Below are positions 1-6,742 of a DNA stretch of 64,000 bases, piece by piece. Where the stretch lies: assembly GCF_002159705.1 (NCBI RefSeq), contig NZ_NFJD01000001.1:1-64000 (forward strand). Reading direction: 5' to 3'. A model generated the notes under the pieces. The model did no database searches and was not told the origin of the DNA. It saw nothing but the letters and a program-made list of their open reading frames with translations. The position numbers and the translations under genes are program-made. The DNA comes from Elusimicrobium sp. An273. Its GTDB lineage: Bacteria; Elusimicrobiota; Elusimicrobia; Elusimicrobiales; Elusimicrobiaceae. Position 1 is the first letter of the stretch. Each line of letters begins with the position of its first letter.

Positions 1-1396
1 GCCCCGTCGCCACGATATCCGTCAGTTTCAACGGATCCAACGACATCTGGCGCGTAACCGCGCGCGAAAAGTCTACCCCGGGCCATTCATCCTGCGCTTT
101 GGCTTGGATCGCTACAATGTAATTGCCCGCGGGCAGCAACAACCCGTTATCGTCGCGGCCGTCCCACGAGTCAAATTCCGTAATCTGGGTGTCTTTGTCC
201 ACCCCTTTCATGCCTTCCCCGATGCGCGGCTGCCAGTCCACTAACGTGCGGACTAACTGCGTCGGCGCCAGGTTGTTGTTATTCGAGGTTTGGCCATACG
301 CAATATCATCCCCGTTGGACGCATCAAAAATGGCTACACGCACGTCCGCATCTTTACTCAGCCGATACGCAAACGTGTACGGCTGGGCAGATACCGCCGT
401 GATGTTCCCCACCACCGTAGGCGTGCTGCGCACCGTGTGCACGTTCGTCACGTCCACCTGCATCGGAATTTGGTTCATGCCCGGGTAGGCAATCGTAGAG
501 CTGAATTCAATCTTGTCCGTGATGATATTGTCGCCGGGGAAATCCGTAGAAACGGTGGAGCGGAAGGCAAAGTCCCCGTTGGATTTGCCGAATTCGCCCG
601 CAATTTCATACGACCCGTCCCACGCCGCACAAAAGGTAATCGGTTGGTTGGAGCGGGTACCGTCATTGTTAAAAATCACATAGGGGCACGTATCATTCGG
701 GCAGTTGGCGTAATTGCCATTATTATCTTTGCTTCCCAATTGACAATTGGAAATGGAGACTGACTGCGTCGTTCCAAAATTATAACAAGTGCCGTTTACC
801 AATTCATATTTGGGTGAAGGGCAAGTTAAACCTTCCGTCGGGCCGCCCGGGCAATGATACGAACCGCAAATGGCGGAATCGCTTTCGGTATCCGGGTATA
901 AATCAATCGTGCGCACGGCCGGCGTTTCTTCCGGGTTTTCTACGTTTTTGCCGTTATAGTATTTTACAATGTCAAATTTAACTTGCTGCAGCGGAAACGC
1001 GATGGAATACGTACTCTGCGCCATGGGTTTGTTGGTGCAGTACACATCCATACACAAAGCCAAACAATGGTTCGGATAATTGTTATTTACATTAGGAGAG
1101 GGATAGGGCTGATCGTACTCGATTAACGCCGAGCTGACCCACGGATCGTTTTTATTGGCGTTGCTGGAAGGGCTGACTTTAGTGGTAAAACTGACGTCGT
1201 TATTGCCGGAGACGACGCTATTTCCCCAATTGCAGTAAACCTGATCCGTTCCCAACGCATTATTCTTATAATACACGCCCGCGGAACGGACTTCCGCCGT
1301 TTGCGCAAACAGAGGAGCGGCCGACACTGTCGCCAACGCCGCACAAACCGCCGCTTTACCCAATAAAGCCAAAATAAAATGTTTCATGTTTTTCAT
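1..1396 (-). CDS. Partial secreted protein with FlgD-Ig-like segment (C-terminus beyond window)
   Basis: The frame is open from the ATG at 1396 to base 1, giving 465 codons with no stop, so the gene runs off the left edge. The N-terminus (MKNMKHFILALLG, then an Ala-rich hydrophobic run ending near APLFAQ) is a Sec signal peptide with likely cleavage after residue 34 or so. The mature part is rich in Asn, Asp and Cys. Near the visible end is WDGRDDNG followed by LPAGNYIV, the pattern of FlgD-type immunoglobulin folds found in large bacterial surface proteins. I infer an exported or surface protein; no enzyme motif is visible. A second ATG nine bases downstream (at 1387) is an alternative start. 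It is the last gene before the window edge and is separated from the upstream cyclase gene by about 200 bases holding one hairpin. Confidence 0.72.
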   Translation of the reverse strand, partial: MKNMKHFILALLGKAAVCAALATVSAAPLFAQTAEVRSAGVYYKNNALGTDQVYCNWGNSVVSGNNDVSFTTKVSPSSNANKNDPWVSSALIEYDQPYPSPNVNNNYPNHCLALCMDVYCTNKPMAQSTYSIAFPLQQVKFDIVKYYNGKNVENPEETPAVRTIDLYPDTESDSAICGSYHCPGGPTEGLTCPSPKYELVNGTCYNFGTTQSVSISNCQLGSKDNNGNYANCPNDTCPYVIFNNDGTRSNQPITFCAAWDGSYEIAGEFGKSNGDFAFRSTVSTDFPGDNIITDKIEFSSTIAYPGMNQIPMQVDVTNVHTVRSTPTVVGNITAVSAQPYTFAYRLSKDADVRVAIFDASNGDDIAYGQTSNNNNLAPTQLVRTLVDWQPRIGEGMKGVDKDTQITEFDSWDGRDDNGLLLPAGNYIVAIQAKAQDEWPGVDFSRAVTRQMSLDPLKLTDIVATG

Positions 1397-1596: not shown

Positions 1597-3096
1597 TCAA
1601 GAAACGACTTGGTCGGCCACCTCGCGGTACACGGCAAAACTGCCGCGTCCGTTTTGTTTCACCACGTACAACGCTTTATCGGCTTTTTCCAGCAGTACGT
1701 CCGGCGTTTGGCCGTCAAAAGGAAAAGAAGAAATCCCTTGGCTGATGCTCAGGTGTACTTCTTTGCCTTCGGTATACCGCTCCGGCAGGGTAATGGCGCC
1801 GATACGGTCTTTGAGGCGTTTGGCGATAATTTTGGCTTCCTCGCCGTTGGTGCGCGGCAACATAATTACCATTTCGTCCCCGCCAAAGCGGCAGGGCACG
1901 TCGGTCTGGCGCAGACTGGTGCGGATCACGCGGCTGACTTCTTTTAAGGCCCAGTCCCCAATTTGGTGGCCGTAGCCGTCGTTGATTTGTTTAAACCAGT
2001 CTATATCCATAATAATGAGGGACATCGTTAAATCAAAACGTTTGGAGCGGTAAATTTCTTCGGCAAATTTTTCGTTGAAATAGCGCCGCACGGGCAGTTT
2101 GGTCAGTTCGTCGTAGTTGGAAAGCTCCTGCACGCGTTCAAACAAGCGGGCATTGTCAATAGAAAGCGCCATTTGCGAAGCGAACTGCTGCAGGGAAATA
2201 AAATCCATATACCCGATGCGCCGGCGCGACAAAATGTTGTCAAACGCCAAAAAGCCCACTTTATTGCGCTGCACTTTAAGCGGAATGTAAATGACGCTTC
2301 GGTTGGCGCGGTAGGTGGCCATGGAATCAAACACTTCTTTTAGCAGGTTTTCTTCGCCGGCAGGCAGGGTTTTGCCATCTTGCTGGGTTACTTTGCCGGA
2401 AATATCCACCCCCAGGACGGACTTAATTTTGCTTCCTTCCGAATCCGTTAAATACAGGCGGACGCGGTCAAAACGGAAGTATTTTTGAACGCCTTTTAAA
2501 ATCAGCTCCAAGCCGTCGTTTAACCGCAGAGAGGAGGCAAAAATGGTGGACAGATCGTTCAGCGCCGTGGAGATATTTAGCCGTTGGTTTTTGGCCTGGT
2601 CTATTTCCGTATTGCGCAGGTTGTGGGAGATTTCTTCCCCCAAGGCTTTAATCAGTTCTTTTTCCTGTTCCGAAAACACCCGGTTTTTGCGGAAGCGTTC
2701 CAAGCGCAGCACGCCTACTTTTTCCTGCATGAAATTATGGACTTCGCCCGATTTGAGCTCCACGCTGGGCCGCTCCCACTTGACTAATACATAAATGGCC
2801 GGGTAACTTAGGTCGGTCGATTCCGCAATTCCGTTTTGCAGCAGCTGCTTTAGAAAAACCGGCTCGTTTAAAACGGAAATATCTTCCTGCATATCCATGC
2901 AGTACTCTTTTTTACACATCATTTTAAGCGACAAAAGCGCCCGCTCCTGCTGCCAGTCAAAAAAGTATACTCTGTCCAGTTTAAACAAATTGCGCAAAGC
3001 CGGCAAGGCACATTCCAACAGTTCGCGTTTGTTTTGAAAGGATTGGTTCAACTGTTTGTGAAATTTATAAAGTGTATACGATTTTTTATCAAACAT
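1597..3096 (-). CDS. Diguanylate cyclase with two GAF-like regions (GGDEF protein)
   Basis: Predicted to make cyclic di-GMP from two GTP in the cytoplasm. The 499 residues show a weak GAF-like region at about 5-160, a clearer GAF domain at about 175-320 ending in the signalling helix LFERVQELSNYDELTKLP, and a GGDEF domain from about 335. The metal-binding aspartates are in IIMDIDWFKQIND (363-373) and the active-site loop is GGDEM (405-409). An RQTD motif (396-399) stands exactly five residues before it, which is the RxxD inhibitory site for product feedback. There is no EAL or HD-GYP domain and no membrane segment. It lies 4 nt after the solute-binding-like gene and so is almost certainly co-translated with it. 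The GAF ligand cannot be told from sequence. Confidence 0.9.
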   Translation of the reverse strand: MFDKKSYTLYKFHKQLNQSFQNKRELLECALPALRNLFKLDRVYFFDWQQERALLSLKMMCKKEYCMDMQEDISVLNEPVFLKQLLQNGIAESTDLSYPAIYVLVKWERPSVELKSGEVHNFMQEKVGVLRLERFRKNRVFSEQEKELIKALGEEISHNLRNTEIDQAKNQRLNISTALNDLSTIFASSLRLNDGLELILKGVQKYFRFDRVRLYLTDSEGSKIKSVLGVDISGKVTQQDGKTLPAGEENLLKEVFDSMATYRANRSVIYIPLKVQRNKVGFLAFDNILSRRRIGYMDFISLQQFASQMALSIDNARLFERVQELSNYDELTKLPVRRYFNEKFAEEIYRSKRFDLTMSLIIMDIDWFKQINDGYGHQIGDWALKEVSRVIRTSLRQTDVPCRFGGDEMVIMLPRTNGEEAKIIAKRLKDRIGAITLPERYTEGKEVHLSISQGISSFPFDGQTPDVLLEKADKALYVVKQNGRGSFAVYREVADQVVS

Positions 3097-3100
3097 AGGG

Positions 3101-4306
3101 CTACCCCTGATAAATGGAAAGCAGGTATTCTATTTCTTTGGCGGCCAGATCCAGTTCCCGATCCAGCGACGCCTGCGTAAAGCGTTCTTCCACAATCTGC
3201 GTTGCGCATACGGCCAGGATGCGTTTTAAAATTTCCATAATCGTACCCGTTACCGTGATATTGGGCAGGGTGCGGGCCGAGGCCAGGATGTTGCTGTAGG
3301 TTTGCAGACGCTGGGAAGAAGAAAAAATAAATTGCTCAAACGCGTCTTCAAACGCCGGGAAGGCGTCGATCATGGCGGCGTAGCGGAGCTGATTTTCCGG
3401 CCGGGCGCAGAACTTAATAAACTTAAGCGCGTTTTTCTTTTCTTGGGAGAGTTTATTAACAAACAAATTCATCCCCGCCAGGTACGAATAATAGGTAGTG
3501 CCCGTGGTAGGCACCGGAAGCGTGCGCACGCGGATGCCTTTGCGGGCGTTAAACGTGCTGACGCCCTGCTTGCGGGAAATCATCATGCTGGCTTTGCCGG
3601 AAACAATCGTCCCCAGCGAGCCGCGCTCGCGCAGGATGGGCATATAATTTTTTAAGGCTAAATTGACGTAATCGCGGATGCCTTCTTTAAACGCTTTGGT
3701 GCCCACCAAAGTGCTGCTTAAATCGGGCGAGAGCAAATCCCCCCCGCGGCCCCAAATACACGGCAGGGCATTGCGCACCGAGAGGGATCCTCTCCAGTCG
3801 CTGTTTTGCATGGGATAGTAGCCGGGGGTATCTTTAAATTGCTCGCGCAACGCTTGGCAAATGTTTAGCAGGCCTTCCCAGGTGGCCAAGTCATGCTCGG
3901 GCCGGGAGGTAACCAATTTCAGGTGGTCGGCGCGGTAGTGAAGCGCGCTTAAATCAAACCACCACGGATAGGAATAAATGTCTTTGGTGCCGGGCTGGTA
4001 GCAATGCGGTTTTAAGGGAACCAAGCAATTGGCCAGCGAAAGGCCCGGATCCAACTCGGAAAGATTTTCCGCCACGCCTTCCCGCACCAAAAGGGCCGTC
4101 CAGTAGTGCGGAATTTGCACCAAATCCGGCACTTCTTCTTCGTGGGTGGGGTGTTTAATCGTAAACATCCGCCGCCACAGGACGTTGCGGGTAAACACGC
4201 GGACGGTAACGTCAATGGAAGGGTTTTCTTTCTTAAAGAGCTCAATAAAAGAGGCGTAAACTTCTTTGGTTTTATCGCCCGAATCGGGCATAGCCCACAA
4301 AATCAT
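3101..4306 (-). CDS. Solute-binding-protein family 1 homologue lacking a signal peptide
   Basis: A 401-residue protein with the layout of family 1 ABC sugar-binding proteins: N-terminal MILWAMPDSGDKTKEVY followed by a helix, PDLVQIPHYWTALLVREG, YSYPWWFDLSALHYRADHL, a central GKASMMI segment, and LAGMNLFVNKLSQEKKNALKFIKF near residue 290. Normal members have a Sec or lipoprotein signal; this one starts directly at the first beta strand. The start is firm: the codon immediately upstream of the ATG is an in-frame TAA, and a GAGGAG ribosome site lies 6 nt upstream. It should therefore stay in the cytoplasm. There are no ABC permease or ATPase genes beside it. Its neighbour 4 nt downstream is a diguanylate cyclase, suggesting a ligand-sensing partner rather than a transport component; this role is inference. 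Confidence 0.78.
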   Translation of the reverse strand: MILWAMPDSGDKTKEVYASFIELFKKENPSIDVTVRVFTRNVLWRRMFTIKHPTHEEEVPDLVQIPHYWTALLVREGVAENLSELDPGLSLANCLVPLKPHCYQPGTKDIYSYPWWFDLSALHYRADHLKLVTSRPEHDLATWEGLLNICQALREQFKDTPGYYPMQNSDWRGSLSVRNALPCIWGRGGDLLSPDLSSTLVGTKAFKEGIRDYVNLALKNYMPILRERGSLGTIVSGKASMMISRKQGVSTFNARKGIRVRTLPVPTTGTTYYSYLAGMNLFVNKLSQEKKNALKFIKFCARPENQLRYAAMIDAFPAFEDAFEQFIFSSSQRLQTYSNILASARTLPNITVTGTIMEILKRILAVCATQIVEERFTQASLDRELDLAAKEIEYLLSIYQG

Positions 4307-4319
4307 TTAAACTCCTCGT

Positions 4320-5339
4320 CTAATCCCAGCTGCGCACTTTCATATTGGGATTAATATCTATATTCTTTTTAACGGGTTTGCCGGTTTTTTCGGCATGTTC
4401 CAACTTTTTATAAGCGGCCAGCGCAATCATGGCGGCATTGTCCGAAGACAGTTTCCGCTCCACAAAATGGGCGGTAATGCCGGCTTGCGCCGCTTGTTGC
4501 TGCATGCGTTCGCGCAGCAAGGTGTTGGCCGCCACGCCGCCGCCGATGGCGATATGGCGCACTTTGTACTTCTTGGCCGCCAGCAGCGTTTTGGTTACCA
4601 AGGTTTCCACCATGGCTTCTTCAAAACTGGCGCAGACGTCGGGGATATTAAAATTCTGGTGGTCGCGCAAATAGTAGCTGACGGCGGTTTTTATGCCGCT
4701 AAACGAAAATTCCCACGTACCCGGCATCAGCGGGCGCGGAAAGTGGATGGCATCCCGGCGGCCCGAAAGCGCCTGTTTGGAAATTTGCGGCCCGCCCGGA
4801 TAGGCAAGCCCCAGCAGTTTGGCTACTTTATCAAACGCTTCGCCGGCGGCGTCATCGCGCGTTTTGCCCAAAACCTTATATTCGCCGTATCCTTTGACAT
4901 ACCACAGCTCCGTATGTCCCCCCGAAACGACCAAAGCCACCAGGGGGAACTCCAACCGGTTCTTTACCTCCGTTCCTTCAAAATCGCAGGCAAAGATGTG
5001 TCCCTCCAGGTGGTTTATTCCTAGTATAGGAACTTTTTTAAAATTTGCAAGGGTTTCCGCCGCCACGCGCCCCACCATCAGCCCGCCCGGCAGGCCCGGC
5101 CCGCTGGCAAAAGCGACGCAGTCAATGGGGTTATCTCCCAACGCTTCGTGAATGACCGTGGCAATTTTGGCCGCATGGGCGCGGCTGGCCAGCTCGGGCA
5201 CGACGCCGTGGTATTTTTTATGTTCATCTATTTGCGAGTAAATGACGTTGGTCACAATTTCCTTTCCGCCTTTTAAAAGCGCGGCGGAAGTTTCATCGCA
5301 GGTGGACTCTATGCCCAAAATCATAAAATCTTTTTTCAT
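4320..5339 (-). CDS. tsaD: tRNA N6-threonylcarbamoyladenosine transferase
   Basis: Transfers the threonylcarbamoyl group to A37 of tRNAs that read ANN codons, working with TsaB, TsaC and TsaE, none of which is in this window. At 339 residues it has the normal length. It starts with the ASKHA ATPase signature MILGIESTCDETSAAL, then HGVVPELASRAH, the metal-binding HLEGH motif, SGGHTEL and the C-terminal GGGVAANTLLRERM. The gene follows ctpA by 2 nt and is followed 13 nt later by the solute-binding-like gene, so it sits inside the long minus-strand operon. No unusual features. Confidence 0.97.
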   Translation of the reverse strand: MKKDFMILGIESTCDETSAALLKGGKEIVTNVIYSQIDEHKKYHGVVPELASRAHAAKIATVIHEALGDNPIDCVAFASGPGLPGGLMVGRVAAETLANFKKVPILGINHLEGHIFACDFEGTEVKNRLEFPLVALVVSGGHTELWYVKGYGEYKVLGKTRDDAAGEAFDKVAKLLGLAYPGGPQISKQALSGRRDAIHFPRPLMPGTWEFSFSGIKTAVSYYLRDHQNFNIPDVCASFEEAMVETLVTKTLLAAKKYKVRHIAIGGGVAANTLLRERMQQQAAQAGITAHFVERKLSSDNAAMIALAAYKKLEHAEKTGKPVKKNIDINPNMKVRSWD

Positions 5340-5341
5340 AC

Positions 5342-6742
5342 TTATTTTTCCGCTCCTTGCGTTTTGGCGGGAGCGTCGGAAGTTTCGGCGGCCGCGTCTT
5401 TCGTTTTATTTTGTTTGGCCTCTTTTTCGGCTTTGCGCGCCTCGGCCGCTTTTTGGGACTGGGCCTTGGCGTCTTCCAGCGAGAGTTTCCCCGTCAGCAC
5501 TTCCACGGCTTTATCCAGCACCGGGTCTTTTTCCGTAAACTTGACCTCCGGATCTTTTTTGCCCGGCGTGTGGACGATGTTGTTGTACTGCATAAACACC
5601 TTCACTTCCTCTTCCGCCGGCACAATTACTTCCACATCCGGGAAAATGCCGCCTTCTTCGGCCTTGGATTTATCGCGGTAGTCGCGCTGGATCAGCCGGC
5701 CGGAAGGCGTATAATAACGGGCAATCGTCAAGCGCAGCCCCGCCCCGCCCGAAAGCGGCAGCACCTGCTGCACGCTGGCCTTGCCAAAGGTGCGCTGGCC
5801 CACCACGAAGGCGCGCTTGTTGTCCTGCAAGGCGCCGGCTACAATTTCGCTGGCGCTGGCCGAACCTTGGTTGACCAGCACCGCAAGCGGCACGTCGGGA
5901 TAATCGGGCTTGGCGGAGGTTTTAAATTCCTGGTAATACTCCGGCTTGCGGCCCTGCGTGTAGACAATCATTTCATCCGGCTGGAGGAAAAGCTTGGCAA
6001 TATCCACCGCCCCCGTCAGCAGGCCGCCGGGGTTAAAGCGCAAGTCCAACACCAGCGACTGCATGCCCTGCTTTTGCAAATCCGCCAGCGCTTTTTTTAC
6101 TTCTTCGGTGCTGTGGCCGGAAAAATCCACCATATACAGGTAGCCCACTTTTCCGTCCAGCATGCGGTAATAGACCACTTCCGGCACGATTTTTTCGCGT
6201 TTAAAATTAAAATCCGGCAGGGTTTTATAGTTGCCTTTTTCATCTTTGCGGCTGATGGTGATTTTCACCTTGCTTCCCACCGGGCCGCGCATCAGTTCCA
6301 CCGCGTCTTCCAGTTTCATGTCGGCGAGGTCTTTGTCATCCACAAACAAAATGCGGTCGCCGGGCATGACCCCCGCCTTAAACGCAGGCGTTCCCGGCAT
6401 GGGCGACATGACGGTTACAAAATCGTCCACCATTTGCAGGCGCATGCCCAACCCGCCAAACTCGCCGCGGGTATCGTTTTTAAGATCTTTATAGTCTTTC
6501 GGATCCAGATATTGCGAAAAATCGTCCAGCTCGTTTACCACGCCTTTAATTGCGCCCGCCACCAATTTATCCGTATCGGTGGTTTCCACATAGTTTTCTT
6601 TTACAAATTCCACCACATCCACTAGCGTGCGCAGCTGTTTTAGGCTGTTGTCCGCCGCCGCATACGCATACGGAAACAGCGTCCCCACAAAAAATACCAC
6701 GGCCGCAAACACGGCGTAACGGTTCAGTTTTTTTGATTTCAT
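5342..6742 (-). CDS. ctpA: Carboxyl-terminal processing protease, S41 family
   Basis: A periplasmic serine protease that trims C-termini of envelope proteins. The 466 residues show a signal peptide or N-terminal anchor (about 1-29, hydrophobic VFAAVVFFVGTLFPYAYA), a PDZ domain at about 95-170 containing GLGMRLQM and PGDRILFVDDKD, and the S41 catalytic core. In NQGSASASEI the nucleophile is probably Ser296; Lys321 in RTFGKASVQQ completes the Ser-Lys dyad with the family's 25-residue spacing. The tail (about 425-466) is a Lys/Ala/Glu-rich low-complexity segment. The position directly downstream of ftsX and an EnvC-like gene suggests a role in peptidoglycan hydrolase control, which some CtpA enzymes have. 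Confidence 0.95.
   Translation of the reverse strand: MKSKKLNRYAVFAAVVFFVGTLFPYAYAAADNSLKQLRTLVDVVEFVKENYVETTDTDKLVAGAIKGVVNELDDFSQYLDPKDYKDLKNDTRGEFGGLGMRLQMVDDFVTVMSPMPGTPAFKAGVMPGDRILFVDDKDLADMKLEDAVELMRGPVGSKVKITISRKDEKGNYKTLPDFNFKREKIVPEVVYYRMLDGKVGYLYMVDFSGHSTEEVKKALADLQKQGMQSLVLDLRFNPGGLLTGAVDIAKLFLQPDEMIVYTQGRKPEYYQEFKTSAKPDYPDVPLAVLVNQGSASASEIVAGALQDNKRAFVVGQRTFGKASVQQVLPLSGGAGLRLTIARYYTPSGRLIQRDYRDKSKAEEGGIFPDVEVIVPAEEEVKVFMQYNNIVHTPGKKDPEVKFTEKDPVLDKAVEVLTGKLSLEDAKAQSQKAAEARKAEKEAKQNKTKDAAAETSDAPAKTQGAEK

Follow-up and report, generated by a model that had tools for sequence, protein, structure and literature searches.

A signal-less solute-binding protein paired with a GAF-GAF-GGDEF protein in Elusimicrobiota: a candidate cytoplasmic carbohydrate sensor

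Why would a protein with the fold of a sugar importer's binding subunit apparently stay inside the cell, encoded directly ahead of a putative diguanylate cyclase? The question is raised by two adjacent genes in the first 64,000 nucleotides of contig NZ_NFJD01000001.1 of Elusimicrobium sp. An273 (RefSeq assembly GCF_002159705.1), the stretch of DNA that we analysed and refer to as the window. One gene encodes a family 1 solute-binding protein (SBP), the other a predicted synthase of cyclic di-GMP (c-di-GMP). An earlier sequence-only reading had proposed that the SBP senses an imported sugar in the cytoplasm and switches second-messenger production; the coordinates, minus strand, gene order and 4-nt gap between the two genes (3097-3100) that it reported were exact when compared with the open reading frames (ORFs) and the sequence. 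We observed the pair in 14 families, with no secretion signal on any partnered SBP whose N-terminus could be read, and we consider it probable that the two proteins form a co-translated sensor-effector pair in which a cytoplasmic carbohydrate sensor controls its cyclase. The features at the centre of this proposal are the following.

3101 to 4306, minus strand: signal-less family 1 SBP, 401 amino acids (ORF, Pfam, predicted model)
4307 to 4309, minus strand: in-frame TAA abutting the SBP start codon (sequence)
4312 to 4317, minus strand: GAGGAG, which probably serves the SBP gene as ribosome-binding sequence (sequence reading)
1597 to 3096, minus strand: GAF-GAF-GGDEF protein, 499 amino acids, predicted diguanylate cyclase with no membrane segment (ORF, Pfam, hydrophobicity)

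The SBP of the window has no signal peptide. Its ATG lies at 4304-4306 with no codons by which the frame could be opened upstream; the TAA directly before it, already noticed in the sequence-only reading and confirmed here, excludes an N-terminal extension, and since the ATG coincides with the first strand of the SBP fold, no residues precede the mature domain. To judge from these features, the SBP is intracellular. A hidden upstream start with a signal peptide was ruled out by the stop codon and by the position of the ATG, which coincides with the first strand in 100 of the 119 partnered homologues with a readable N-terminus; the sole hydrophobic flag upstream of an SBP start was in L054, at a TTG 12 codons upstream, located at the end of tsaD. 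A frameshift or pseudogene was likewise ruled out by the ratio of nonsynonymous to synonymous substitution rates (0.02-0.12), by which both genes are judged to be intact and under purifying selection.

Class- and phylum-wide searches followed by reading of the individual loci established how widely the pair is distributed. The SBP was found in 59 of 61 near relatives, including all 43 with good assemblies, and the pair in families f1, f2, f3, f4, f5, f6, f8, f9, f11, f12, f14 and f15 of the class and in two non-class families, f20 and f22, linked wherever the DNA reached far enough. Among 158 distinct SBP sequences, 124 are immediately followed on the same strand by the partner cyclase, 7 are signal-less SBPs ending at a contig edge or at the edge of the fetched DNA, and 27 are others. 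The two genes mostly overlap or lie no more than 4 nt apart. Such recurrence in 14 families shows that the pairing is not due to chance, and the adjacency across Elusimicrobiota that the sequence-only reading had suggested searching for is indeed conserved in much of the phylum. In families such as f10 and f7 no match to the partner cyclase was found at the threshold used. A collection scan with a narrower alignment (A3) gave 79 loci, of which those with informative titles were all from Elusimicrobiota.

The absence of a secretion signal goes together with the partnership: all 119 partnered SBPs with a readable N-terminus lack both signal peptide and lipobox, and all 24 unpartnered relatives carry one or the other. 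An orthologue with a signal peptide, which would count against the proposal, was found nowhere in the partnered clade. In a tree of 63 SBP sequences, built with a quick method and with Shimodaira-Hasegawa-like approximate likelihood ratio test support, the signal-less, partnered SBPs and the secreted ones are separated by a single branch (97% support). As no root was inferred, the tree shows one change and not its direction; loss of the secretion signal is the simpler reading.

A conserved position next to a cyclase could also reflect shared surroundings. On the minus strand of the window the order of the ORFs, read directly from the sequence, is ctpA–tsaD–SBP–GGDEF, tsaD and the SBP gene being 13 nt apart.

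4320 to 5339, minus strand: tsaD, the upstream neighbour, kept in most class lineages, not all (Pfam TsaD, 4.5e-82; synteny)
5342 to 6742, minus strand: ctpA-type S41 peptidase gene with PDZ domain, conserved neighbour (Pfam Peptidase_S41, 1.1e-55; synteny)

This order recurs in the loci read, down to 23% SBP identity, and ctpA-tsaD precedes the pair in the majority of the class, as would be expected if SBP and cyclase merely shared a housekeeping operon with tsaD and functioned separately. We regard such hitchhiking as improbable, since the pair persists as its surroundings change and remains adjacent in lineages without a neighbouring tsaD, and since a partner cyclase was never found clearly alone, the exceptions occurring only at contig ends. 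Two candidate orphan cyclases were rejected: in family f4 a very diverged SBP, below Pfam detection, still lies beside the cyclase, and in G149 the contig ends. A conserved protein of about 630 amino acids is encoded directly upstream of the diverged pair of f4 (L215 3582-5588, L216 3649-5523, L217 1-1893, plus strand), between tsaD and the SBP gene where the locus includes tsaD; it has no Pfam match (checked in L216). On the other side of the window pair, some 200 nt beyond the end of the cyclase gene and in the same orientation, the gene at 2-1396 (minus strand) encodes a secreted protein of at least 465 amino acids that runs off the contig start and has a weak FlgD_ig-like C-terminal stretch, and which may be a surface or secretion substrate. 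The RNA genes found in the window amount to two tRNAs, with neither a c-di-GMP riboswitch nor any other regulatory RNA among them.

The second member of the pair has the architecture expected of a regulated c-di-GMP synthase.

2617 to 3039, minus strand: N-terminal GAF-like domain, about residues 20-160 (predicted secondary structure; Pfam GAF_2, E 0.0055)
2152 to 2508, minus strand: second GAF domain, residues 197-315 (Pfam GAF_3, E 1.4e-08)
1642 to 2118, minus strand: GGDEF domain, residues 327-485 (Pfam, E 7e-43; genome search)
1900 to 1911, minus strand: inhibitory I-site RQTD, residues 396-399 (I-site motif present in almost every full-length partner)
1873 to 1884, minus strand: catalytic GGDE motif, residues 405-408 (sequence comparison of partners)

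The GAF-GAF-GGDEF order with a proper I-site described by the sequence-only reading stands, the first GAF domain being seen mainly in the predicted model: Pfam barely detects it, yet in the model its strands and helices follow one another in a GAF-like order. The signature reads RQTD-VPC-RFGGDEM, with RxxD five residues ahead of GG(D/E)EF and methionine in place of the F of GGDEF, and R396, D399, G405, G406 and E408 are invariant in 20 partner cyclases across the phylum. The enzyme is thus predicted to be a diguanylate cyclase with an intact I-site, and a Pfam scan found no EAL domain in it. Its top hydrophobic 19-residue stretch scores 0.94; some partner cyclases have stretches over 1.6, which we read by inspection as strands of the second GAF domain. 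In L063 (9498-12419, plus strand) the cyclase frame extends about 450 residues past a shortened GGDEF match, an extension without a Pfam domain that might reflect a frameshift or an extra domain. Four matches to GGDEF and two to EAL in the genome indicate that c-di-GMP can be both made and degraded.

What could the SBP sense? Pfam recognises it as SBP_bac_8 (E 5.5e-15) and SBP_bac_1 (E 3.5e-13), and a model built from an alignment of 63 homologues shows a complete two-lobe fold (mean predicted local distance difference test score 93.1, predicted template modelling score (pTM) 0.90). Structure searches (Foldseek, VIA-align) matched cellodextrin and beta-glycoside binders over the full length, aligned from residue 1, at Z 42-44, the best being CbpB of Clostridium thermocellum (Z 43.9, root-mean-square deviation 2.8, 390 aligned) and the beta-glycoside-binding protein of Thermus thermophilus giving Z about 43. 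The same proteins are the closest solved sequences (Thermus 7C6x series, CbpB 7X0x series; E about 1e-41), and the SBP is predicted to fold as a complete cello-oligosaccharide-type binding protein. According to the titles of the structure entries, W41, W67, E117 and W177 were mutated in the Thermus protein, and they presumably belong to its ligand site; W67 and E117 have aligned counterparts among the following features of the SBP.

4100 to 4102, minus strand: Trp69, by alignment the counterpart of the ligand-site residue Trp67 in the Thermus protein (conserved in all 23 diverse members compared)
3953 to 3955, minus strand: Asp118, at the alignment position of Thermus Glu117 (acidic, D or E, in 21 of the 23)
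3110 to 3136, minus strand: C-terminal motif E-x-x-Y-L-L-S-x-Y at residues 391-399 (typical among the signal-less SBPs)

A carbohydrate ligand is likely because the pocket positions W69 and D118 are kept. The position of the stacking Trp41 is residue 40 of the SBP (about 4187-4189 in the window), and in this column of alignment A1 6 of 23 diverse members have tryptophan, while R, P or K takes its place across most of the class, as if the ligand had changed in part of the clade. This loss would also fit an SBP that no longer binds a ligand and serves the cyclase as a constitutive scaffold or regulatory subunit, with signals entering through the enzyme's own two GAF domains; the divergence of the f4 SBPs beyond Pfam recognition points the same way. 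We nevertheless think such a scaffold unlikely, as W69, D/E118, R125 and W185 are invariant or nearly so across very diverged SBP sequences and the predicted model retains the entire two-lobe fold. At the C-terminus, Y-hydrophobic-hydrophobic-S/T/A/N is kept in 30 of 39 signal-less members (hand count), and the E-x-x-Y-L-L-S-x-Y motif was found in none of 15 free-standing secreted relatives; that it is a docking site is a guess.

Given the full family 1 fold, might the SBP nonetheless work as the binding protein of an importer, leaving the cell by a non-classical route or serving a permease located elsewhere? It is the sole SBP_bac_1 (PF01547) match in a 97.8%-complete genome, and no transporter genes lie beside the pair in the window, in agreement with the sequence-only reading. 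The only two BPD_transp_1 permeases of the genome are on another contig and are, we presume from their N-terminal sequence, of the peptide type; no sugar-type ATP-binding cassette (ABC) permease was found in the genome. In other lineages, permeases lie near the pair in four genomes. In two lineages outside the class (G323, G245) the pair directly follows a sugar ABC importer made up of a lipoprotein SBP and two permeases, accompanied in G323 by an MFS_2 sugar transporter, and in G064 and G088, both from family f6, an importer homologous to these (lipoprotein SBP 40-42%, permeases 49-60% identical to those of G323 and G245) lies several kilobases upstream together with a GH2-type glycoside hydrolase. 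GH2-type hydrolases also lie upstream of the pair in f5 (G099). Several early-branching lineages thus place the pair in a carbohydrate-import context. Each neighbouring importer has its own lipoprotein SBP, so that the signal-less SBP is an additional protein, which favours the sensing of imported sugar. Proximity to ABC permeases, listed by the sequence-only reading among the outcomes that would refute it, thus does not occur in the sense intended there. Taken with the 119 partnered homologues lacking signal and lipobox, this makes a role in import very improbable.

Two further observations concern these lineages. Downstream of the pair in f6 (L071 10949-17000 and L070 12283-16999, plus strand) lie genes for secreted CHU_C/FlgD_ig and glycan-binding-like proteins, possibly an output or a surface glycan system. 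In several Elusimicrobiota families (L073, L085, L120, L121 and similar; Pfam checked in L073 and L120) an SBP_bac_1 domain with a signal peptide is fused to BPD_transp_1 in one chain of 730-785 amino acids.

How might the proposed sensor work? The SBP would descend from the binding protein of a sugar ABC importer, now without its signal peptide, and would close on a cytoplasmic carbohydrate. Where the pair is linked to an importer this would be an oligosaccharide that has been taken up; in Elusimicrobiaceae it might be a modified sugar or an internal one. Of the two conformations of the SBP, one would dock on, or let go of, the GAF part of the cyclase, and this would alter c-di-GMP synthesis, with the I-site additionally limiting output through product inhibition. 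The intracellular SBP and the conserved cyclase linkage of the original proposal are borne out by the sequences, while the ligand class with sugar binding itself, the direct contact, the direction of regulation and the output are what we infer. Several points temper this reading. A co-fold of the two proteins, performed on a relative with a 3-nt in-frame gap as a monomer with an artificial two-residue read-through tether and a shallow paired alignment, gave a pTM of 0.50 and no confident interface, which, as the output has no measure of the interface, speaks neither for a complex nor against one; a conserved operon alone does not prove physical interaction; and in the lineages linked to ctpA-tsaD, where R, P or K stands in for the Trp41 equivalent, the ligand may differ or be absent.

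If true, the closing-clamp sensor known outside the cytosol also works on internal sugar, and carbon status is linked to c-di-GMP in Elusimicrobiota, a phylum for which our literature search found essentially no work on this messenger. As both proteins are small and soluble, the proposal is directly testable.

Outside the cytosol, the binding and switching of signalling receptors by SBPs, c-di-GMP enzymes included, is an established mechanism (PMC9602780, PMC9993111). Receptor activation by SBPs is presented as extracytosolic (PMC9602780), and periplasmic-binding-protein clan domains linked to c-di-GMP were described in 2022 as periplasmic, with only SBP_bac_3 studied (PMC8846402). We found no description of a cytoplasmic SBP-cyclase pair in the open-access literature, which is weak evidence of absence. 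The claim of the sequence-only reading that no described system has this pairing has to be narrowed to that cytoplasmic form, as NspS-MbaA is a described pair of an SBP and a c-di-GMP enzyme (PMC9993111). We give about even chances to the fuller reading in which the whole SBP-to-receptor unit lies inside the cytoplasm and, being importer-derived, reports the cellular level of an imported or internally made carbohydrate to a soluble cyclase; the unit would be retained in much of the phylum and, among Elusimicrobiaceae, in genomes that lack a sugar ABC importer, where its ligand may have changed.

Some known systems share single elements with the Elusimicrobiota pair. The Thermus protein and CbpB have the full-length fold in common with the SBP, but are secreted importer SBPs, and the W41 stacking residue is not kept in the window protein. 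In EIIA-Glc/PdeS of Vibrio cholerae a cytoplasmic protein passes sugar status to a c-di-GMP enzyme (PMC8846402), albeit through phosphorylation-based phosphotransferase signalling to a phosphodiesterase and without an SBP fold. RmcA and other fused-SBP enzymes tie an SBP-fold sensor to c-di-GMP turnover (PMC8846402), the SBP domain there being fused, membrane-anchored, periplasmic and of the SBP_bac_3 type instead of family 1. Closest in arrangement is NspS-MbaA of V. cholerae and Sinorhizobium meliloti, in which a separate SBP gene lies directly upstream of the c-di-GMP enzyme gene, often overlapping it, and the SBP serves sensing and not transport (PMC9993111), as we propose here. In the SBP pairs described so far, the signal runs from SBP to enzyme (PMC9993111), and we found no precedent for the reverse, in which c-di-GMP or the cyclase would control the SBP, for example for the release of stored sugar or for action on another enzyme; we consider this highly unlikely. 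NspS is periplasmic and PotD-like, binding polyamines, and MbaA is membrane-bound with GGDEF and EAL domains, whereas here a cytoplasmic, sugar-type family 1 SBP is encoded next to a soluble GAF-GAF-GGDEF enzyme without EAL. On the best reading, the pair would be a cytoplasmic counterpart of NspS–MbaA by its logic, not a member of that system.
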